Below are positions 15,201 to 26,899 of a stretch of 33,693 nucleotides of DNA, piece after piece. The stretch comes from an uncultured Clostridia bacterium. GTDB taxonomy: Bacteria; Bacillota; Clostridia; Oscillospirales; Ruminococcaceae. A program made the position numbers and the translations under genes. Position 1 is the stretch's first letter. Each line of letters starts with the position of its first letter. The DNA lies in the NCBI GenBank assembly GCA_947649285.1, contig CANSRB010000011.1, positions 1 to 33,693 on the forward strand, written 5' to 3'. The notes under the pieces were generated by a model, which saw only the letters and a program-made list of their open reading frames with translations, searched no databases and was not told the DNA's origin.

Positions 15201-16648
15201 TTGACGGGGATAAAGCGCCGGATATCGATTTGAATTTTTCGGGGGAATATCAATCCCGGGCGCACCGCTATACCGAGGAGCTGTTCGGCAAGGATCACGT
15301 ATTTAAGGCGGGTACGGTGTCCACCGTTGCGGATAAAACGGCGTACGGTTTTGCCATGAAATATCTGGAAGAAAAAGGGATGACGGTACATAAAGCCGAA
15401 GAAAACCGTTTGGCGCTGGGCTGTGCCGGCGTAAAGCGGACAACCGGGCAGCATCCGGGCGGGATGGTCGTCGTTCCCTCTCAGTACGAGGTATATGACT
15501 TTACCCCGGTGCAGCATCCGGCGGATTCGAAGGAATCCGGGGTGATTACCACCCATTTCGACTTCCACTCCCTTCATGATACAATCCTGAAGCTGGACGA
15601 GCTGGGGCACGATGTCCCGACCTTGTATAAGCATTTGGAGGATCTTACCGGGGTTTCCATTACCGATGTTCCGGCCTTTGATGAAAAGGTGATCAGCCTG
15701 TATACTTCTACCGAGGCGTTAGGGGTGGAGCCGGAGCAGATTTACAGTGAAACCGGGACACTGGCACTTCCGGAGATGGGGACGAATTTTGTTCGCCAGA
15801 TGCTGATCGACGCCCATCCGACCAAGTTTTCCGACTTGCTTCAGATTTCGGGGCTTTCCCATGGTACCGGGGTGTGGCTTGGGAATGCACAGGACCTGAT
15901 TAAAAATGGGACCTGCAGTATTTCCGAAGTTATCGGTACACGTGACAGCATTATGACCTACCTGATGCATAAAGGCTTGGAGCCTAAGATGGCTTTCAAA
16001 ATCATGGAAATCACCCGGAAAGGCAATGCGTCCAAGCTGCTGAACGAAGAACATTTCAATGCAATGAAGGAACATGATGTCCCGCAATGGTATGTGGATT
16101 CCTGCATGAAAATTGAATATATGTTCCCAAAAGCCCATGCGGCCGCCTATGTCATCGCGGCCTGCCGGCTGGGATGGTTTAAAATTTATTATCCGCTGGC
16201 GTTTTATGCCGCGTTCTTTACGGTGCGGGGCGGTGATTTTGATGCGGACAGTGCTGTCCGAGGGCTGGATGTGCTCCGTATGCGGATGGAAGGGCTGCGT
16301 TCCAAAGGAAACGAACGGACTGTAAAGGAAGAGGATACCTATACCACGCTGCAGGTTATCAATGAGATGCTTTGCCGGGGCTATCAATTCCTTCCGGTGG
16401 ACTTATACCGATCGGACGCGCTGGCGTACACCATTGAGGATGGAAAAATCCGTCTGCCTTTCACGGCGCTGAAAGGGGTTGGAGAAGCGGCGGCCCGGAG
16501 TCTCCAGGAAGCTTCTGCCAAAGGCCGTTATATTTCCGTGGATGAGGTGCAGACCCGTTCCGGGGTGTCGAAATCCGTCATTGAAACTTTAGACGAAGCG
16601 GGGGCGTTCGGCGATCTGCCGAAAACCAGCCAGTTGTCTTTCTTTTAG
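12242..16648 (+). CDS. polC: DNA polymerase III PolC-type alpha subunit
   Basis: OB fold, PHP (ELHLHTIMSAMDA), DnaQ-like exonuclease (VFDTETTGLSAG) and C-family polymerase (GSRGSVGSSFVATMAGI...PDIDLNFSGEYQ). TTG start overlaps ispG. Confidence 0.98.
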   Translation: MNDIEKEREEELNNSFSAIFGEYVKNEVPEKIAAAEILFLDAFHESKELVITIKPAELLPKKDLAELEPLLAKALKLKKVTIDTKYLPTQFECGYLSEISAVLKRRVAMINGYFDGAACTLEDRLLIVELKHGGAELLEKCGVDRELSDYIAKEFSFTPQIRFAGVREIQEEAFAPAPVYTEDFGEPPPERELSLPGDLPAEPESPPSGESKPSGKKRRAAASKKASSRLDLSRLPFECGEGEVVIGKSIAEKPITLAEVSGESGKVVVCGEVFAKDVRYSRDNSKLILSIDFTDYTGSNTLKIIDDAKKESSYDAVQKGSVLVARGEANYDKYDREVTIRPYDIMVYKKVPTMDQAPEKRVELHLHTIMSAMDATTRVEDAVNTAFRWGHKAVAITDHGVLQAYPAAMNAVEKIRKNGGDFKVIYGVEAYFVNDRMEIVTGDQDEPLDGECIVFDTETTGLSAGIERMTEIGAVRIRGGEIVEEFNTFVNPGKPIPAKITELTGITNEMVKGAPAEEEAVRLFAEFCNGKILIAHNAPFDMAFLNAALSRAKINIQYTSLDTVPLCRKLLPELKKHKLNLVAGHLGLGDFNHHRASDDARMLARIFLKLRDQLKTEYGIENFQQINTACAGVDVKKAPTYHQIILVQNKTGLKNLYKLVSHAHLDYYFKRPRIPKSVLMQHREGLLLGSACEAGELYRAIVSGKPWGELCDLARFYDYLEIQPVENNSFMVRTGTVESEEQLRDFNRTVVNLGEKLGIPVVATCDVHFLNKSDGIFRKILLAGMKFRDFEEQPPLYFRTTEEMLEEFSYLGEEKAREIVITNPNKVADLIDGDIRPIPLGTFTPEIPGSDEDLRRITWGKAREIYGENPPELVSARLERELESIIKHGFAVLYMIAQKLVANSEENGYHVGSRGSVGSSFVATMAGISEVNPLPPHYVCPHCTYSEFITDGSVGSGYDLPAKDCPECGTLMNRDGHDIPFETFLGFDGDKAPDIDLNFSGEYQSRAHRYTEELFGKDHVFKAGTVSTVADKTAYGFAMKYLEEKGMTVHKAEENRLALGCAGVKRTTGQHPGGMVVVPSQYEVYDFTPVQHPADSKESGVITTHFDFHSLHDTILKLDELGHDVPTLYKHLEDLTGVSITDVPAFDEKVISLYTSTEALGVEPEQIYSETGTLALPEMGTNFVRQMLIDAHPTKFSDLLQISGLSHGTGVWLGNAQDLIKNGTCSISEVIGTRDSIMTYLMHKGLEPKMAFKIMEITRKGNASKLLNEEHFNAMKEHDVPQWYVDSCMKIEYMFPKAHAAAYVIAACRLGWFKIYYPLAFYAAFFTVRGGDFDADSAVRGLDVLRMRMEGLRSKGNERTVKEEDTYTTLQVINEMLCRGYQFLPVDLYRSDALAYTIEDGKIRLPFTALKGVGEAAARSLQEASAKGRYISVDEVQTRSGVSKSVIETLDEAGAFGDLPKTSQLSFF

Positions 16649-16685
16649 GAGAATCCGGCTTTCAGGCGCAGACTTTCAAGCGGTC

Positions 16686-16907
16686 GGGACGTTCCTCCGG
16701 CTCTAACCGGGGCGGCCCGGCTTCAGGAGTGCTTCCCTTCTGTCCTCCATGCGGGGGTTTCCAAGGGGACCCAAGTTTTCTTTTCCCCCCTTTTCTTTGA
16801 TCGCTCAAAGAAAAGGGGGTGCCCGGCGCAGGGCGGCATGAGCCTCGCATTGGAATCGCGGCTCTGTTGAACATTTCAGGACACTGTTTTTTATGAGACG
16901 GGCGTAA
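16686..16907. repeat. Intergenic repeat copy 2
   Basis: Long inverted repeat CCCCCTTTTCTTTGA-tcgc-TCAAAGAAAAGGGGG (16786-16819) with motifs shared with 326-556. Confidence 0.7.
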
Positions 16908-16925
16908 GCTTCCTGCCGAAAAGAA

Positions 16926-16954
16926 TTGACAGTATCGATTTATTGTGTTATCAT
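16926..16954 (+). promoter_or_regulatory. his operon promoter
   Basis: TTGACA (16926-16931), 17-nt spacer, TATCAT (16949-16954). Confidence 0.85.
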
Positions 16955-16955
16955 G

Positions 16956-16967
16956 TTAGCAAGCTAA
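16956..16967. promoter_or_regulatory. Candidate operator at the his transcription start
   Basis: Inverted repeat TTAGC-AA-GCTAA immediately 3' of the -10 box. Confidence 0.5.
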
Positions 16968-16986
16968 AGTGACAGAGGAGGATTCC

Positions 16987-18183
16987 ATGCTCAAAAATCA
17001 GCTTATTACGCCGGAGGGCACCAAGGATGACTTGTTTGAAGAAGCGTCCGTTTGCCGCCGTATCGCACAGCGTCTTTGCGGATTATTCGAAAAGCGCGGG
17101 TTTGCTGAGGTCGTTACGCCGGGATTGGAATTTCTGGATGTGTTTTCCGTTGAGGGGCATTCCATCCCAACTGAATATATGTTCAAATTGACCGACCCTA
17201 AGGGGCGGCTTCTGGTGATCCGTCCGGACTCCACCCTGCCGATCGCAAGGCTCTGTGCAACCCGGTTAAAGGGCGAACCGCTGCCTTTGCGTCTGTATTA
17301 TAATCAGGCGGTATATTCCTCCAATCCGGCCCTGCGCGGCCGGAGCGACGAGGTTAAACAGGCAGGGGTGGAATTGATCGGGGTACAGTCTAAGCTGGCC
17401 GATTTGGAGATCCTTTCGCTGGCCTTGAAATCGTTGGAGGAATTGGGAAGTCCAAGTTTCCGGCTCGAAATCGGGCATATTGGATTTTTTAATATTCTGG
17501 CAGATTCCCTTTGTTTGGATGCGGCGGCTCGGGAGGAGCTCCGTCTGCTGATCGAAGTCAAAAACTATCCGGCTGTAGGGGACATCCTGGACCGGTTCTC
17601 CGGACGGAAAGAAGCGTTGATTCTGAAACAGCTGCCCCGGCTGTTTGGCGGGAAGGAAGTGTTCCGGCAGGCCTCCGCACTGATTGAAAACAGTGAGGCC
17701 GCCCCGATTTTGTCCTATCTCCAGCAGCTTTATGAAAACCTTCAAAAGCTTGGCCTGGGCGACCGGGTCAGCGTCGATCTTGGGATTGTCAACCGTACCG
17801 ACTATTATACCGGCGTCGTGTTTAAAGGTTACCTGGAGGGTTATGGGGAACCGATCCTTTCCGGAGGGCGGTATGACCGCCTGCTGGCTTCCTTTGGGGA
17901 AGAAGCCCCGGCGATCGGGTTTGCCGTCCATATTGATGCGGCGGCCCGGACGCTGATGCGGGAGCAGGAGGTGCGGATCTCTCCGGCAGAGCGGTTGATT
18001 TTCGCGGAGCCAGGCCGGGAAATGGAAGCCATCCATTATTTGAACGAATTGACCTCGCAGGGGATCAAGGCGGAGTTATCCCTGTTCTCCACCTGGGAGG
18101 AAAGCCGGGAATATGCGGAAAAGCGGGGGATTTCCAGGCTGGAGAAGCCGGAATTGTTCTCATCAGGAGGAAAAGTGCAATGA
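16987..18183 (+). CDS. hisZ: ATP phosphoribosyltransferase regulatory subunit
   Basis: HisRS-like: TPEGTKDDLFEEA...IRPDSTLPIARL; next to a short-form hisG; GAGGAGG RBS before the ATG. Confidence 0.94.
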   Translation: MLKNQLITPEGTKDDLFEEASVCRRIAQRLCGLFEKRGFAEVVTPGLEFLDVFSVEGHSIPTEYMFKLTDPKGRLLVIRPDSTLPIARLCATRLKGEPLPLRLYYNQAVYSSNPALRGRSDEVKQAGVELIGVQSKLADLEILSLALKSLEELGSPSFRLEIGHIGFFNILADSLCLDAAAREELRLLIEVKNYPAVGDILDRFSGRKEALILKQLPRLFGGKEVFRQASALIENSEAAPILSYLQQLYENLQKLGLGDRVSVDLGIVNRTDYYTGVVFKGYLEGYGEPILSGGRYDRLLASFGEEAPAIGFAVHIDAAARTLMREQEVRISPAERLIFAEPGREMEAIHYLNELTSQGIKAELSLFSTWEESREYAEKRGISRLEKPELFSSGGKVQ

Positions 18184-18827
18184 AACCGATTCGGATCGCC
18201 CTGACAAAGGGCAGGCTGGAAAAAGATACGACCTGGCTTTTCGAGCAGATGGGGCTGGATTGCACCGAACTGCTTCAAAAGGGAAGGAAGCTGATTTTGT
18301 CCATCCCCAATGCCGGGCTGGAGGTCGTTTTGGCGAAAGCGGCGGATGTCATTACTTATATCGAAAACGGGGTCTGTGATCTGGGTGTCGTTGGAAAGGA
18401 TACCATTATGGAATATGGAGGCAGCTTTTTTGAGGTCATGGATTTGGGCTTCGGGAGATGCCGGTTCGCTTTGGCCGGGAAAAAGGGTGTCGATTTTTAT
18501 GCCGGCTACGGGGAAAAAACGATTGCAACCAAATATCCGAATGTGTCCCGTGTTTTTTTTAAAGGGAAGGGAATGGACATCCGCGTTGTTCGAATCGAGG
18601 GAAGCGTAGAGCTGGCGCCGTTGCTGGGCTTAGCGGATGGGATTGTCGATATCGTGGAAACCGGCACCACCCTTCGGGAAAATGGGTTGGAGGTCATTGA
18701 AGATGTCGCCCCGATTTCTGCCCGGGTGATTGTCAATACGGTCAGCATGAAGCTGCGGAAGGCGGAAATTGAAAGCCTGCTGCACCGGATGGAACAGGCT
18801 TTGGACCTGGAGAATAAAGGAGAGTAA
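18180..18827 (+). CDS. hisG: ATP phosphoribosyltransferase (short form)
   Basis: RIALTKGRLEKDT...GVCDLGVVGKDTI...GIVDIVETGTTLRENGL. Confidence 0.97.
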   Translation: MKPIRIALTKGRLEKDTTWLFEQMGLDCTELLQKGRKLILSIPNAGLEVVLAKAADVITYIENGVCDLGVVGKDTIMEYGGSFFEVMDLGFGRCRFALAGKKGVDFYAGYGEKTIATKYPNVSRVFFKGKGMDIRVVRIEGSVELAPLLGLADGIVDIVETGTTLRENGLEVIEDVAPISARVIVNTVSMKLRKAEIESLLHRMEQALDLENKGE

Positions 18828-18832
18828 GGGAA

Positions 18833-20116
18833 ATGGTTGAAACAATTCGAGTAAATGGACAGGATGAAGTCGAGTTCCTTCAGCGGCTGAAGGCTCGCGC
18901 GGGTTCAGTGAATGAGGAAGTTACCGGGCGGGTTGCGGAAATCCTGAAGGATGTCCGCTTGAGAGGGGACGAGGCCGTACGGGAATATACGCTCCGGTTT
19001 GACGGGGGCTGCCCGGCAGCATTTGAAGTGCCGCGGGACGAAATCAACGAGGCGCTTTCCAGTGCGGAGGAGGATTTTATCAACGCTCTCCTGAGCGCAG
19101 TTGAAAATATTTCGGATTTCCATCAGCGCCAGAAACAGCAAAGCTATATCGACGCGAAGCCGAACGGCGTGTTGATGGGCCAGCGGATCCGGGGGCTTAA
19201 ACGGGTTGGCATCTATGTCCCGGGCGGGACGGCGGCCTATCCCTCTTCCGTACTGATGAACGCCATCCCGGCGAGGATCGCCGGCGTCGAGGAGATCATC
19301 ATGGTCACTCCTCCGATGAAAGACGGCCGGGCAAACCCAGATATTTTAACTGCGGCGGCGGTCTGCGGGGTAGACCGGGTGTTCCTGCTGGGCGGGGCGC
19401 AGGCGGTCGCTGCGCTGGCCTATGGTACGGAAACCGTCCCGAAGGTGGACAAGATTGTAGGCCCCGGGAATATCTATGTAGCCACCGCGAAAAAGCTGCT
19501 CTTCGGCGAAGTGGATATCGATATGATCGCTGGTCCGAGCGAGATTCTGATCGTAGCTGACGATACCGCGGATCCGGCTTTTGTGGCGGCTGATTTGATG
19601 AGCCAGGCAGAACATGACAATCTGGCTTCGGCGATTCTGGTGACGACTTCGGAGCGTTTGGCAGAAGAAACCAAAGCCGAGCTGGAAAAACAGGTCGCCT
19701 CCCTTTCCCGGGAGGAAATGATCCGGACATCTCTGAAAGATTACGGCGCGATCTTCCTGTGCGACCAGATGCCGGGTGCAATCCAGCTGGCAAATGAGCT
19801 TGCGCCGGAGCATCTGGAGATCATGGTGGAAAACCCGATGCAGTATCTGGGCCAGCTGGATAATGCCGGCTCGATCTTCATGGGCGCTTACTCTCCGGAA
19901 CCTCTGGGGGATTATTATGCCGGCCCGAACCATGTCCTGCCGACCAGCGGTACGGCGCGGTTCTTCTCCCCTCTTTCGGTAGATGCGTTTGTGAAAAAGC
20001 TGAGCTACATTTATTATACCAAAGAAGCGCTGGCTGAAGCGGAAAAGGATATTGTCTGCCTGGCGGAGAAAGAAGGGCTGACGGCGCACGCCAATTCGGT
20101 CCGGGTACGTTTTTGA
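18833..20116 (+). CDS. hisD: Histidinol dehydrogenase
   Basis: GVYVPGGTAAYPSSVLMNAIPA-type motif (VGIYVPGGTAAYPSSVLMNAIPA), IAGPSEILIVAD, GPNHVLPTSGTARF. Confidence 0.98.
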   Translation: MVETIRVNGQDEVEFLQRLKARAGSVNEEVTGRVAEILKDVRLRGDEAVREYTLRFDGGCPAAFEVPRDEINEALSSAEEDFINALLSAVENISDFHQRQKQQSYIDAKPNGVLMGQRIRGLKRVGIYVPGGTAAYPSSVLMNAIPARIAGVEEIIMVTPPMKDGRANPDILTAAAVCGVDRVFLLGGAQAVAALAYGTETVPKVDKIVGPGNIYVATAKKLLFGEVDIDMIAGPSEILIVADDTADPAFVAADLMSQAEHDNLASAILVTTSERLAEETKAELEKQVASLSREEMIRTSLKDYGAIFLCDQMPGAIQLANELAPEHLEIMVENPMQYLGQLDNAGSIFMGAYSPEPLGDYYAGPNHVLPTSGTARFFSPLSVDAFVKKLSYIYYTKEALAEAEKDIVCLAEKEGLTAHANSVRVRF

Positions 20117-20137
20117 CGGAATTCAGGAGGATTTTAT

Positions 20138-21214
20138 ATGTCTTATGAATTAAATCAGAAAATCCGGGAATTGAAGCCCTATGCACCTTTGGAGGGGGAG
20201 TATGCCGTCCGTCTGGACGCGAACGAGTCCTATCTTACTTTGCCGCCGGAGAAATTGGGGGCGGTGTTTTCCAAAGCGGTGCAGGAGCCGCTGAACCGTT
20301 ATCCCGACCCACGGGCGGAGAAGCTTTGCCGGGCTTTTGCAGGCTATTACGGCGTCCGTCCGGAGCATTGCACCGCGGGGAATGGGTCGGATGAATTGAT
20401 TGCGCTGATTGCTTCCGCTTTTTTTGTTCCAGGGGATGAGCTGATTACCCTGGAACAGGATTTCTCGATGTATCGGTTTTATGGGGAGGTCAGCGGGGTG
20501 ACGACCTCGATTTTCCCAAAGCGTCCGGATTTGACGGTCAACCTGGAAGGGCTGATCGAATATGCCAGCCGGACCGGCGCACGGGGGCTGATCTTTTCGA
20601 ACCCCTGCAATCCGACCTCCATCTGCCTGGAAAAGAAGCAGGTAATAAAATTGGTGCAGGCGCTGCCGAACTGCCTGGTTGTGGTAGACGAAGCCTATAT
20701 GGATTTTGCGGATGAAAGCGTTTTGTCAGAGATTGAACGCTATGATAATCTGATGGTGCTGAAAACCTGTTCCAAGGCTATTGGGCTGGCGGGGATCCGG
20801 CTGGGCTTTGCCGTGGCGGGAGAATTGCTTACCCGTGCTCTTCAGTCAGTGAAATCCCCTTATAACGTCAACAGCCTGACCCAGGTAATTGGCCGGGAGG
20901 TATTGTCCGACCGCGCTTTTTTGGAGGAATGTACCGAAGAGCTGATCCGTGCGCGGGATCAGCTCTATAGCCGCATCCTCTCCCTGTACGCCCGATATCA
21001 GCTGATTGACGAGGTATACCAGACGGCATCCAATTTTGTGTATTTCCGGACGCGGTATGCCAAACCCATTTTTGAGGCGCTGAAAACGCGCTCGATTGCG
21101 ATCCGGTATATGGGGGATTATCTTCGGATCTGCGCGGGCAGCAAGGATGAGATGGAGCGGCTGTTTGAGGCGCTTGAGGAAATATTTCAGGAGCTTTCCG
21201 GAATGAAAGGATGA
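20138..21214 (+). CDS. hisC: Histidinol-phosphate aminotransferase
   Basis: LDANESYL...GNGSDELI...NPCNPTS...VVDEAYMDF...KTCSKAIGLAGIRLGF. Confidence 0.96.
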   Translation: MSYELNQKIRELKPYAPLEGEYAVRLDANESYLTLPPEKLGAVFSKAVQEPLNRYPDPRAEKLCRAFAGYYGVRPEHCTAGNGSDELIALIASAFFVPGDELITLEQDFSMYRFYGEVSGVTTSIFPKRPDLTVNLEGLIEYASRTGARGLIFSNPCNPTSICLEKKQVIKLVQALPNCLVVVDEAYMDFADESVLSEIERYDNLMVLKTCSKAIGLAGIRLGFAVAGELLTRALQSVKSPYNVNSLTQVIGREVLSDRAFLEECTEELIRARDQLYSRILSLYARYQLIDEVYQTASNFVYFRTRYAKPIFEALKTRSIAIRYMGDYLRICAGSKDEMERLFEALEEIFQELSGMKG

Positions 21215-21810
21215 AGAACATGGAACGGACCCGTGTCGGGAAAGTGAGCCGGAAAACCAAGGAAACAGAGATTTCTGTCCAGGTGGGGCTGGATGGGCCT
21301 GCGGCGGCGGAAATTTCCACTGGTATCGGCTTTTTCGATCATATGCTGACGGCCTTCGCCATCCATGGCGGGCTGGATCTGCAAATAAAATGCCAAGGAG
21401 ATTTGGAGGTAGACTGCCACCATTCGATTGAAGATACTGGGATTGTGCTCGGGCAGGCGCTAGGCCAGGCGCTGGGGGATAAATCCGGGATCCTGCGTTA
21501 TGGGGAGTCCCGCATCCCGATGGATGAGGCCTTGGGGGAGTGTATCCTGGATATCAGCGGGCGGCCTTTTCTGGTGTTTCAGGCGGAATTTACTGCGGAT
21601 CAGGTTGGGGGGATGGATACCCAGATGGTGGAGGAATTTTTTCGGGCTGTGGCCTTTCAGGCTGGGCTGACCCTCCATTTGTCCGTCCCTTACGGCAGGA
21701 ACGATCACCACAAAGTGGAGGCTCTGTTCAAGGCATTTGCCCATGCTTTCAGGAAAGCGGTTGTCCGGAGCGAAGCCGGTCAGGCGCTTTCGACCAAGGG
21801 AGTGTTATAG
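21211..21810 (+). CDS. hisB: Imidazoleglycerol-phosphate dehydratase
   Basis: GIGFFDHMLTAFAIHGG...DCHHSIEDTGIVLGQAL...GRNDHHKVEALFKAFAHAFRKA. Confidence 0.98.
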   Translation: MKNMERTRVGKVSRKTKETEISVQVGLDGPAAAEISTGIGFFDHMLTAFAIHGGLDLQIKCQGDLEVDCHHSIEDTGIVLGQALGQALGDKSGILRYGESRIPMDEALGECILDISGRPFLVFQAEFTADQVGGMDTQMVEEFFRAVAFQAGLTLHLSVPYGRNDHHKVEALFKAFAHAFRKAVVRSEAGQALSTKGVL

Positions 21811-21813
21811 GCA

Positions 21814-22563
21814 ATGGCTCGACCCGTGCGCGCGTTCCGGTGGAACGCGCTTCTCCTTATCGCGCTGCTGATTTCGTCCAATCTGCTGTTGGTGTATTCC
21901 AGGCAAGTTTCTGCTGAAACGCTGCCCAGTGCTTTGGCAGAGTGGCCGAAGGAAACCGTTTATCTGGATATCCTGCCTCTCAGCCAAAATCCGGAGCTGC
22001 CCAATGGCTGTGAAATCACTTCCCTGGCGACGGTACTGAATTATTGGGGCTACCCGGTGGATAAAGTGACCTTGTCGGATGAATTCCTGGATAAACAGGA
22101 ATTTGTGATCCGGGGCGGCGTGAAGTATGGCGGGAACCCGGAGGAGGTTTATGTGGGAAACCCCAAAAGCAAAGAGGGGTTTTACTGCTATCAGGTACCG
22201 ATTGTCCGGGCGGCCAACCGGTACCTGGAATCCGTTGGGGCAGATGAACGGGCTTACGATATCACCGGGGCGGGGCTGGAGGAGATCAAAAGCCATTTGG
22301 ACCAGGGGAGGCCGGTTATTGTCTGGTCTGTCCGGGATGGAAAGGACCGGGAACTGAAGTACAGTGATAAAAGCTGGCTTTTTTCGGAAACAGGGGAATT
22401 TTATCGGCCTTACAGCAATCTGCACTGCTTTTTGGTTCAGGGGTACGGGCCGGATAAAATTTTTTTGACAGATACACTGGAGGAAGACATCATTTCCAGA
22501 TCTTATGATTATTTTTTCCCGCCGTTTGAAAAGATGGGCTCCCGCGCGGTGGTAATTTATTGA
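21814..22563 (+). CDS. Predicted secreted/membrane-anchored C39-like (Peptidase_C39_2 type) papain-fold protein in the his operon
   Basis: N-terminal hydrophobic signal (WNALLLIALLISSNLLLVYS), ELPNGCEITSLATVLNYWGYPVDKVTLSDEFL, and downstream LHCFLVQGYGPDKIFLTDTLEED (His/Asp region). Three nt separate it from the hisB stop. Confidence 0.8.
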   Translation: MARPVRAFRWNALLLIALLISSNLLLVYSRQVSAETLPSALAEWPKETVYLDILPLSQNPELPNGCEITSLATVLNYWGYPVDKVTLSDEFLDKQEFVIRGGVKYGGNPEEVYVGNPKSKEGFYCYQVPIVRAANRYLESVGADERAYDITGAGLEEIKSHLDQGRPVIVWSVRDGKDRELKYSDKSWLFSETGEFYRPYSNLHCFLVQGYGPDKIFLTDTLEEDIISRSYDYFFPPFEKMGSRAVVIY

Positions 22564-22579
22564 ATGAAGGAGCGTTGCT

Positions 22580-23179
22580 ATGCTTGCGATTATTGATTAT
22601 GGGGCAGGAAATCTCTTCTCTGTCAAAAATGCATTGGAACATTTAGGGGAAGAAGGGGTCATTACCAGTGATCCTGAGGTGCTGGCCCAGGCGGACCGGC
22701 TGATCCTTCCAGGGGTTGGAGCCTTTCCGGACGCGATGCAGAAGCTGAACCAGCTGGGACTGACGGCGGTTATTCAGGAGCAGGCCAAGCGGAAGCCGCT
22801 GCTCGGGATCTGCCTGGGAATGCAGATTTTGTTTGAATCCGGCAGTGAATTTGCTGAAACCGCCGGGCTGGGGTTGATTCCCGGCCGAGTAGACCGGATC
22901 CAGACCTCATATAAAATTCCTCACATGGGATATAATGAGTTGGAATTTCAAAACCCTTCCCCTTTATTAAAGGGAATTGAAGAAAAATCCTGTGTATATT
23001 TTGTCCATTCCTTTATGGCATACACGCCGGAGGAGTATGTCACCGCCTGCTGTGACTATGGGGTGAAAGTCCCTGCCCTGGTACAGAACGCCCATGTTTT
23101 TGGCGCGCAGTTCCATCCGGAAAAGAGCGGGGAGGCTGGGCTGCGGATACTGCATAATTTTATCCGTTATTCCAATTAG
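22580..23179 (+). CDS. hisH: Imidazole glycerol phosphate synthase, glutaminase subunit
   Basis: IIDYGAGNLFSVKNALEHLG...LLGICLGMQILFESG...GAQFHPEKSGEAGL. Confidence 0.97.
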   Translation: MLAIIDYGAGNLFSVKNALEHLGEEGVITSDPEVLAQADRLILPGVGAFPDAMQKLNQLGLTAVIQEQAKRKPLLGICLGMQILFESGSEFAETAGLGLIPGRVDRIQTSYKIPHMGYNELEFQNPSPLLKGIEEKSCVYFVHSFMAYTPEEYVTACCDYGVKVPALVQNAHVFGAQFHPEKSGEAGLRILHNFIRYSN

Positions 23180-23210
23180 TCCAGGATGTTGAAAAGAAAG
23201 GAAGCCGGTA

Positions 23211-24011
23211 TTGATGATTATTTATCCAGCGATTGATATTCAGGGCGGCGAATGCGTCCGTCTGACGAAAGGGAACTTTGAAACTGCGGAAAGGGTGGCG
23301 GAAGACCCCTTGAAAACCGCTTTGGAATTTAAGGCGGCCGGGGCGGAATACCTGCATATGGTGGATCTTGACGGCGCCAAAACCGCCCGGATGCAGAACC
23401 GTGAGGTATTCGTCACGGTGGCGGCGGAAAGCGGACTGAAGGTGCAGGTTGGCGGCGGCATCCGGGATCAGGACGCAGCGGCTTATTATCTGGAGCATGG
23501 AATTGACCGGGTCATTTTGGGGTCCATTGCCGTGAAAAACCCAAAGCTGCTGGCCGAATTGGTGCGGGAATACGGCGAAAGGATTGTCGTCGGCATTGAC
23601 GCGGAGGACGGTATGGTTAAAACTGAAGGATGGCTGGCGGCCGGACGGGTGAATTTCCTGACCCTTGCCAAGGAAATGGCTCATATCGGCGTGCGGCAGA
23701 TCATTTATACCGACATTTCCAAGGACGGCACATTGACGGGCCCGAATTTGGCCGACCTGAAAAAGCTGCGGGATAGTGTCCGGCTGGGGATTATCGCTTC
23801 CGGCGGCATTTCCAATATTGACGATATCCGTGCATTGGCCAAGCTACGGATGCAGGGGGCCATCTGTGGGAAATCCCTTTATCATAAAACGCTGGATTTA
23901 GCGGAAGCAATCCGGATAGGGGAAGAAACGGTCCCGCCTCCAGCTAAGTCTGTCCGGGCTTCCCGGCCCAAAAAGCCGGAAAATCGCCCGGCTAAAACTC
24001 CGAAAGAATAA
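23211..24011 (+). CDS. hisA: Phosphoribosylformimino-5-aminoimidazole carboxamide ribotide isomerase with extra basic/Pro-rich tail
   Basis: [21 protein letters not shown]...[10 protein letters not shown]...[11 protein letters not shown]-term [29 protein letters not shown]. Confidence 0.96.
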
Positions 24012-24025
24012 CGGGAGGTAGGGCT

Positions 24026-24802
24026 ATGCTTTCGAAACGGATTATCCCTTGTTTGGATGTGAAAAACGGCCGGGTCGTGAAGGGGATCAACTTTGTCGGC
24101 TTAAAAGAGGTCGGCGATCCGGTGGAGTGCGCACGGGAATACTATTGCCAGGGCGCGGATGAAATTGTCTTTTTGGATATTACGGCGACCCATGAGGAAC
24201 GGGACACCATGATTGATGTAGTGCGTGAAACAGCCCGCCAGGTGTTTGTCCCGCTGACCGTCGGAGGCGGTATTCGGGAGATTGAGGATTTCCGCCGTCT
24301 GCTCCGCGCCGGTGCGGATAAAATCTCGGTGAATTCCTCGGCAGTCAAAAACCCGCAGCTGATCTCAGACGCAGCTCAACTGTTTGGCAGCCAATGCGTT
24401 GTAGCGGCGATCGATGCCAAGCGGGTGGACAGAAGCTTCCATGTGGTGGTCAATGGCGGACGGATCGATACCGGGCTGGACGCGATTCAATGGGCGAAAG
24501 AGGTTCAGGAGCGGGGAGCAGGGGAAATCCTGCTGACCTCGATGGATGCGGACGGTACCAAGGAGGGCTTCGATATCGAGCTGCTGAACGCGGTTTGCGA
24601 GGTGGTGTCGATCCCGGTGATCGCTTCGGGCGGTTGCGGCCAGCTGAAACACTTTTCGAAGGTTTTTCTGGAGTCCGGGGCAGATGCGGCGCTGGCAGCG
24701 TCCCTGTTCCACTATAAGGAGCTGACGGTGGAGCAGGTGAAAACCCATCTCGCTGAAAAAGGAATCCCGGTACGCCGGCTGAAAGGATCGGAATGCGAAT
24801 GA
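24026..24802 (+). CDS. hisF: Imidazole glycerol phosphate synthase, cyclase subunit
   Basis: [26 protein letters not shown]...[13 protein letters not shown]...[10 protein letters not shown]. Confidence 0.98.
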
Positions 24803-25131
24803 ATCTGGAACGTTATTTTGCGAAGTCGGAGTTGATTCCGGCGATTATTGTAGAGGACTCGACCCGTGAGGTTCTGATGCTGGCCTATATGAACCGGGAG
24901 AGTATGGCCAAGACGCTGGAAACCGGATATACCTGGTTTTATTCCCGTTCCCGGCAGGAGCTGTGGAATAAGGGCGCGACCAGCGGTCACCTTCAGCGGG
25001 TGATTTCGATCATGGGGGATTGCGACGACGATACCCTTCTCATCCGGGTGGAGCAGACGGGGGCGGCCTGCCATACAGGGAACCACAGCTGCTTTTTCCA
25101 GCCGGTTTTGATAAAAGGAAAGGAGGAATAA
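24793..25131 (+). CDS. hisI: Phosphoribosyl-AMP cyclohydrolase
   Basis: [42 protein letters not shown]...[27 protein letters not shown]. Confidence 0.97.
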
Positions 25132-25133
25132 AA

Positions 25134-25466
25134 ATGGCCTATGAAAATGCGCTGGCTGAGCTGAGCCAGGTGATTGCTTCCCGGAAAGCCCATCCGGAGG
25201 AGGGCTCTTATACCTGCTATCTTTTTGAAAAGGGGCTGGATAAGATCCTCAAAAAATGCGGGGAAGAAAACGCCGAAATGATTATCGCGGCCAAAAACCA
25301 CGACCCGGAAGAGCTGGCCAATGAAATCTGCGATTTGTTTTACCATGTCCTGGTTTTAATGGAACAGGAGGGGCTTCCCCTGGAACGGGTGTTGGAAATC
25401 CTGGACCAGCGGAGTAAGAAAATCGGGAACCTGAAGCAATTCCATCAGGTGGACCGCAATACCTGA
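25134..25466 (+). CDS. hisE: Phosphoribosyl-ATP pyrophosphatase
   Basis: EGSYTCYLFEKGLDKILKKCGEENAEMIIAAKNHDPEELANEICDLFYHVLVLM; ATG at 25134 after AGGAGG. Confidence 0.96.
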   Translation: MAYENALAELSQVIASRKAHPEEGSYTCYLFEKGLDKILKKCGEENAEMIIAAKNHDPEELANEICDLFYHVLVLMEQEGLPLERVLEILDQRSKKIGNLKQFHQVDRNT

Positions 25467-25534
25467 CCTGCCGCCGCATAACCTCCCTGCTGCCTGCATA
25501 TGTTGAAAAGAAGGAACAACAGGGGGCGGTAACT

Positions 25535-26899
25535 ATGGATCAGATACTGGGAACGCTGAACCGCTTTTTGACGGGGCCGATTATGGTCTGGAGCGTATTG
25601 GCCGTCGGGGTATATCTTACCTTCTGCACAGGCGGCGTCCAGTTCCGGTATTTTGGCCGGATGCTTCGGGAAACGCTGGGCAGGCTGTTTTCCCGCTCCA
25701 AGTCAAAAAGGGGAGGGATTACGCCGTTTCAGGCGATGACGGCCGCGCTTTCGGGAACGCTTGGGACGGGGAATATTGCAGGAGTCGCCGCGGCGGTTTC
25801 GGTAGGAGGGGCTGGGGCCTTATTCTGGATGTGGATGAGTGCCCTGTTTGGGATGGCGACGAAATATACGGAAATTGTGCTGGCGGTTGCCTACCGCAAA
25901 AAAATGCCGGATGGGCAGTATCGAGGCGGGCCGATGTGTTATTTGCCTGCCGCGTTTTGCCGTACGCCGAAACTGGGCCAAAAAATGGCCGCTTTTTTTT
26001 CGGTTTGTTGTTTGGGTGCCAGTTTTTTTATGGGGAATATGGTACAGTCGAATACGGCTGCGGCTGCGCTTTCAGCGGTTTTCCCAATCCCTTCGTCCGG
26101 GCTGAAAATCTGCTTTGCCGTCATTACCCTGCTGGTGGGAGTGGTCATCTTCGGGGGCTTGAAGCGGATTACCCGGACAACGGAATGGCTCATCCCGTTG
26201 CTGTCCTTGATTTATATGGCCGGCTGTGTATTTGTTATTGTGCGGAATGCGGAAGGCCTTCCCGCTGTATGGCAAGAAATCTGGGAATCGGCCTTTTCGG
26301 TTCCGAGTGCGGCGGGAGGGGTTGGCGGGTTCCTCCTGAACCGCAGTGTAAAGGTTGGGATCACCCGCGGGATTTTTACCAATGAGGCGGGTTTGGGTTC
26401 TGCCCCTATCGTCCATGCGTCGGCGGAGACGCCCTCCCCGGCGCATCAGGGGCTTTGGGGGATGTTCGAAGTATTTCTGGATACCATCGTCTTTTGTTCC
26501 CTGACGGGCTTTGTAGTGCTGCTGTCCGGCTTCCATCGGGAAGGGATACGCGATGGGGCCGCCTTGACGCTGCGGGCTTTTGAGCAAAGCCTGGGCAGCG
26601 GGGCGGCTGTATTGATCGGCGGCTCAACGGTTTTTTTTGCTTTGGCAACGATCCTCGGATGGAATTATTATGGGGAGACCTGTGTCCGTACTCTTTTTCC
26701 CAAGAGAGAGGATTGGGCGGTTTCCTGCTATCGTGTTTGCTATATGCTGGCGGTGTATCTGGGCGCTGTAACGGCTCTGGACCTGGTATGGGGATTATCC
26801 GATCTATTCAATGGGCTGATGATGCTGCCCAACCTTTGTGGGATACTGCTTCTTTCAGGCAAAGTGCGTAAAGAAAACCGGGCTTTGTCTAAAAAATAA
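25535..26899 (+). CDS. Sodium:alanine/glycine symporter family protein (AgcS/AlsT)
   Basis: GGITPFQAMTAALSGTLGTGNIAGVAAAVSVGGAGALFWMWMSALFGMATKYTE...TNEAGLGSAPIVHA. Confidence 0.95.
   Translation: MDQILGTLNRFLTGPIMVWSVLAVGVYLTFCTGGVQFRYFGRMLRETLGRLFSRSKSKRGGITPFQAMTAALSGTLGTGNIAGVAAAVSVGGAGALFWMWMSALFGMATKYTEIVLAVAYRKKMPDGQYRGGPMCYLPAAFCRTPKLGQKMAAFFSVCCLGASFFMGNMVQSNTAAAALSAVFPIPSSGLKICFAVITLLVGVVIFGGLKRITRTTEWLIPLLSLIYMAGCVFVIVRNAEGLPAVWQEIWESAFSVPSAAGGVGGFLLNRSVKVGITRGIFTNEAGLGSAPIVHASAETPSPAHQGLWGMFEVFLDTIVFCSLTGFVVLLSGFHREGIRDGAALTLRAFEQSLGSGAAVLIGGSTVFFALATILGWNYYGETCVRTLFPKREDWAVSCYRVCYMLAVYLGAVTALDLVWGLSDLFNGLMMLPNLCGILLLSGKVRKENRALSKK

Follow-up and report, generated by a model that had tools for sequence, protein, structure and literature searches.

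The gene between hisB and hisH

The window, the whole stretch of 33,693 nt of contig CANSRB010000011.1 that was analyzed, carries a histidine operon in the order hisZ-G-D-C-B-[C39]-H-A-F-I-E, with his gene names assigned by eye except for those used as queries. The additional gene (C39 gene; 21814..22563, + strand) encodes a 249-aa predicted secreted or membrane-anchored cysteine peptidase-like protein of PF13529, on the evidence of its open reading frame, profile match and structure model. It begins 3 nt past the stop of hisB (imidazoleglycerol-phosphate dehydratase; 21211..21810, + strand) and ends 16 nt ahead of the start of hisH (IGP synthase glutaminase subunit; 22580..23179, + strand), exactly as the sequence-only reading of this DNA had described; both neighbors were identified as open reading frames and by family matches with the HisB and HisH queries. 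The length of the C39 reading frame and its support are well beyond chance expectation.

We found a Shine-Dalgarno-like AAGGGAG (21796..21802, + strand) within the final hisB codons, 11 nt ahead of the C39 ATG, and a probable ribosome-binding site of hisH, AAGGAG (22567..22572, + strand), between the C39 stop and the hisH ATG. The composition and codon usage of the C39 gene (GC 0.520, GC3 0.612) match those of the neighboring his genes, and we found no foreign-DNA signature for it. Directly past its start codon is a perfect 9-bp hairpin, GCGCGTTCC GGT GGAACGCGC, with a weak T-rich tail (21830..21850, + strand). We rejected this hairpin as a genomic repeat since the genome has no second copy at fewer than three mismatches, and the region does not fold better than shuffled sequences.

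The likely promoter of the his operon is a promoter-like TTGACA-17-TATCAT with TG before the -10 element (16926..16954, + strand), which matches the consensus at 11 of 12 positions and is the top-scoring site within 16600-25600. Another promoter-like site, TTGACA-17-CATCAT (22465-22493, 10/12), lies in the 3′ end of the C39 gene and could drive hisHAFIE; 10 such sites were found in the region compared with 5.3 expected. Rfam matched nothing within the window; hence, it has no listed T-box or other leader.

Family, predicted fold and presumed catalytic residues

The C39 protein matches PF13529 (Peptidase_C39_2) over positions 1-141 of the 143-position profile with E=1.1e-26 (94.5 bits relative to a cut-off of 24 bits), and PF03412 (bacteriocin C39) is absent from its Pfam matches at E<=1; neither NCBIfam nor PADLOC yielded an assignment. 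By sequence, the nearest solved structure is PDB 3ERV, a putative C39-like peptidase (E=2e-21). Corroborating this match, a structure search with an AlphaFold model built from 44 aligned sequences (mean pLDDT 87.7) ranked 3ERV first, with E=1.8e-15 and TM 0.69/0.85 (0.85 by target), and the C39 domains of ComA and PCAT1, the staphopains and papain came far below it. The sequence-only reading had called this protein a secreted C39-like papain-fold protein and had named both PF13529 and PF03412 along with a structural comparison as checks; the class is borne out by profile, sequence and predicted fold, with only the first of the two profiles matching. Hence, from the profile and the model, assignment of the putative exported hydrolase to PF13529 is well supported.

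The nucleophile-type motif LPNGCEITSLATVLNYWG and the LHCFLVQGY...LTDTL region noted in that reading are both present. Cys66 (22009..22011, + strand), the presumed nucleophile, aligns with the GCE of 3ERV; His204 (22423..22425, + strand), the presumed general base, is invariant across the 44 aligned sequences; and Cys66, Asp220 (22471..22473, + strand), the presumed third triad residue, and Gln58 (21985..21987, + strand), the presumed oxyanion-hole residue, are each at least 90% conserved in the 44. Relative to its aligned relatives the C39 protein has just 27-43% identity, and all presumed catalytic residues are kept. These relatives range from 236 to 517 aa, appear to be exported and differ in their N-terminal parts. 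One of them, from genome G097 (locus L028), has a dockerin-like N-terminal sequence by eye and carries Ser (PKGSE) where the catalytic Cys would be, so it is possibly an inactive or altered enzyme.

Hydropathy marks residues 1-34 (21814..21915, + strand) as a predicted signal anchor or signal peptide; these residues are low-confidence and non-globular in the AlphaFold model. The N-terminus reads MARPVRAFRWNALLLIALLISSNLLLVY-SRQVSA-ET, with a 17-residue hydropathy maximum of 2.4, and could be either a membrane anchor or a signal peptide cleavable between VSA and E. Hence, the C39 protein is apparently exported.

PF13529 proteins are single-domain peptidases that are sometimes encoded near transporter genes (PMC10318531). 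With 3ERV, from Bacillus anthracis, the C39 protein shares the fold, the GCE...HC...D motif, the Gln before the Cys and the single exported domain, although identity in the structural alignment is 28%. Unlike the usual PF13529 members, its gene sits in a biosynthetic operon, and its Asp is followed by Thr rather than the usual Pro. The bacteriocin-processing C39 peptidases of PF03412 (ComA, PCAT1) also have a papain-like fold, but their structural matches are weaker (3k8u, E=2.5e-4; 7n87, E=4.9e-4); moreover, the C39 protein is a single domain without a fused ABC transporter, and no double-glycine leader substrate was recognized near its gene. A paralogue on contig C65 of the same genome (392 aa) and its orthologue in genus member G200 have the same motifs at 42% and 41% identity, respectively, but are encoded outside the his operon and have a long, charged N-terminal stalk.

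Distribution and history of the arrangement

Within the genus, we found hisB-C39-hisH in two of eight genomes, that of the window's species and that of one sister species (G202). A second assembly, CANAQK010000046.1 (L033), has the same arrangement with one indel within the C39 gene; it and the G202 contig were counted as one record. In the other six genomes, the junction is either empty, with hisB-hisH gaps of 15-26 nt (G201, G113, G203 and G193), or otherwise filled, with a signal peptidase I gene in G200 and 497 nt without a recognized gene in G199. A C39 gene about 6 kb from hisB in G194 was set aside as it is outside the junction, past the his genes and beside an anaerobic RNR activase-like gene. 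In the his operon of G194 (L074), hisH and hisF are separated, by eye, by a SAM methyltransferase-like gene, and hisF is followed by a cytidine deaminase-like one; G200 has, again by eye, a 110-aa MazG-like reading frame, unmatched in Pfam, between hisC and hisB (L037).

Across the family, the C39 query matched 78 of 199 genomes, at no more than 44% identity apart from the window, and the HisB and HisH queries each matched 149 of 199. Comparing the coordinates of the C39 matches with those of the HisB and HisH matches, we found no C39 match between hisB and hisH, other than that of the window, among the 138 family genomes with collinear hisB and hisH. An order-level C39 search returned no closer donor, and in the tree the protein groups weakly with genus paralogues (support 87/31). 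Hence, linkage to the his operon is not conserved across lineages, as it would be for an accessory member of the operon; instead, close relatives have the junction without the C39 gene and the gene is unrelated to the pathway, as for an operon passenger (alien gene). The sequence-only reading had looked to conservation of the arrangement for support and had held that its restriction to this genome would speak against the proposal; the arrangement extends only to one sister species besides, through one shared tract, which comes close to such a restriction.

That tract, about 3.8 kb, is at least 99.2% identical to the sister species from the 3′ end of hisD into hisA (about 19775..23600-23775) and includes the C39 gene. 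In a sliding comparison of the window with L073, background identity was about 96%, computed from about 60 kb of alignable stretches, and only 3 of 216 background intervals reached at least 99%. Gene by gene, the window diverges from G202 by 4.3-4.9% in hisZ, hisG and hisD, but the values are 0.09% for hisC, 0.67% for hisB, 0.13% for the C39 gene and 0 for hisH. Since the C39 gene lies within this tract, the two carriers probably reflect, by sequence comparison, one insertion and one recent exchange between species. Hence, the two occurrences of hisB-C39-hisH are not independent.

The sole difference between the C39 genes is a 1-nt deletion in G202 (T at 22493), known from one metagenome assembly, which frameshifts the conserved C-terminus, alters about the 20 last residues and removes the GSRAVVI-like end found in most relatives. 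The copy in the window is intact and of ordinary composition, with its presumed catalytic residues kept at 27-43% identity; hence, the gene was selected for most of its history and, in the window, may still be useful.

Gaps between hisB and hisH were at most 60 nt in 123 of the 138 collinear genomes and exceeded 250 nt in 10, compared with 4 of 70 at hisC-hisB and 5 of 109 at hisH-hisA; above 400 nt, the counts were 10 of 138 relative to 2 of 70 and 3 of 109. Unrelated genes occupy the hisB-hisH junction in G055 and G030 (GNAT) and G182 (NUDIX), unnamed reading frames in G091 and G179, and no recognized gene in G078 and G153; the remaining large gaps come from G143, with a reordered operon, and G054, with a distant pair. 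By eye, the order in G143 is hisB-hisZ-hisG-hisD-hisH (L103). Since the 10 large gaps count the window and two rearranged operons, and interruptions are about as frequent at the neighboring junctions, hisB-hisH is not a clear hot spot; a mild preference for it is possible.

A probable passenger in the histidine operon

The his pathway is otherwise complete and the C39 gene is not needed for it, in keeping with the remark in the sequence-only reading that no step calls for an extracytoplasmic cysteine peptidase. An extra gene might have been explained by a missing histidinol phosphatase, but we set this idea aside because contig C5 has a HisJ-family phosphatase candidate, just above the profile cut-off. 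Nothing in the analysis linked the C39 protein to histidine.

We consider it very likely that the C39 gene encodes an ordinary C39-like hydrolase of the envelope or exoprotein type and is a lineage-specific passenger of the his operon with no histidine role; its status as a lineage-specific passenger is well supported by the distribution. The gene would have entered the hisB-hisH junction a single time and would be co-transcribed from the his promoter, and its product would take no step in histidine synthesis. As a young passenger, it would have been exchanged between the sister species along with the flanking his genes. The protein would be a papain-fold cysteine hydrolase of the PF13529/3ERV type, exported and probably anchored in the membrane, that presumably uses Cys66, His204 and Asp220 for catalysis with Gln58 as the oxyanion residue. 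It would most likely cleave an envelope component or an extracellular peptide, at a peptide or isopeptide bond. Since domain N5 of a mycobacteriophage endolysin has been matched to the C39-like peptidase of B. anthracis (PMC3314691), an envelope component is, by analogy, a plausible substrate.

The position of the gene inside the operon with short gaps, and its product's exported peptidase fold with an intact triad, would also agree with functional coupling, in which histidine shortage induces the his operon, the enzyme is exported as part of this response and, outside the cell, it frees histidine or peptides containing it to complement biosynthesis. However, the gene order is not conserved in the family and is common to two sister species only, via one recombined tract, and the copy in G202 carries a frameshift. 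In relatives, this junction can hold unrelated genes, and no peptide transporter was recognized inside the his operon. Hence, we regard functional coupling as improbable, and the release or processing of histidine peptides, as suggested in the sequence-only reading, finds no support. Its form in which the starvation response of the his operon exports a histidine-supplying peptidase, so that synthesis and scavenging are turned on together from one transcript, is quite improbable.

It is very unlikely that a phage or another mobile element brought the C39 gene into the operon as cargo, for example as a lysin-type C39 domain. Viral contigs (12 IMG/VR loci, 24-34% identity), phage records and plasmids do contain PF13529-like proteins, but the best phage relatives reach about 31-34% identity and chromosomal ones in the family up to 44%, and the composition of the gene matches that of the his genes. 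In addition, no integrase or transposase was recognized near the C39 gene, and a tRNA scan and a search for flanking direct repeats around it found none. A wrong join of the his operon and the C39 gene in assembly or binning is barely credible. In its favor, the second carrier comes from a metagenome assembly, the genome of the window is split into 181 contigs and the two carriers are nearly identical over the tract. Against it, the same join occurs in two separate assemblies with four hisB differences and one indel, and neither the reading frames nor the ribosome-binding sites nor the composition show a break.

The preferred reading, a lineage-specific passenger, retains the insertion part of the domesticated insertion that the sequence-only reading had offered as its other possibility, with the two sister species sharing the gene through one tract. 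Alien genes in operons have already been described with the histidine operon as the model (PMC10138114). Like them, the C39 gene is pathway-unrelated and lies inside a conserved operon; it differs in nothing fundamental and adds one more example, in which the exchange between sister species can be traced.

Since unrelated genes repeatedly enter hisB-hisH within one family, gene neighborhood alone should not assign a histidine-related function at this junction, which corrects a tempting functional inference drawn from operon position. The locus also offers a legible example of an operon passenger that apparently passed between sister species when the operon segment around it was exchanged.
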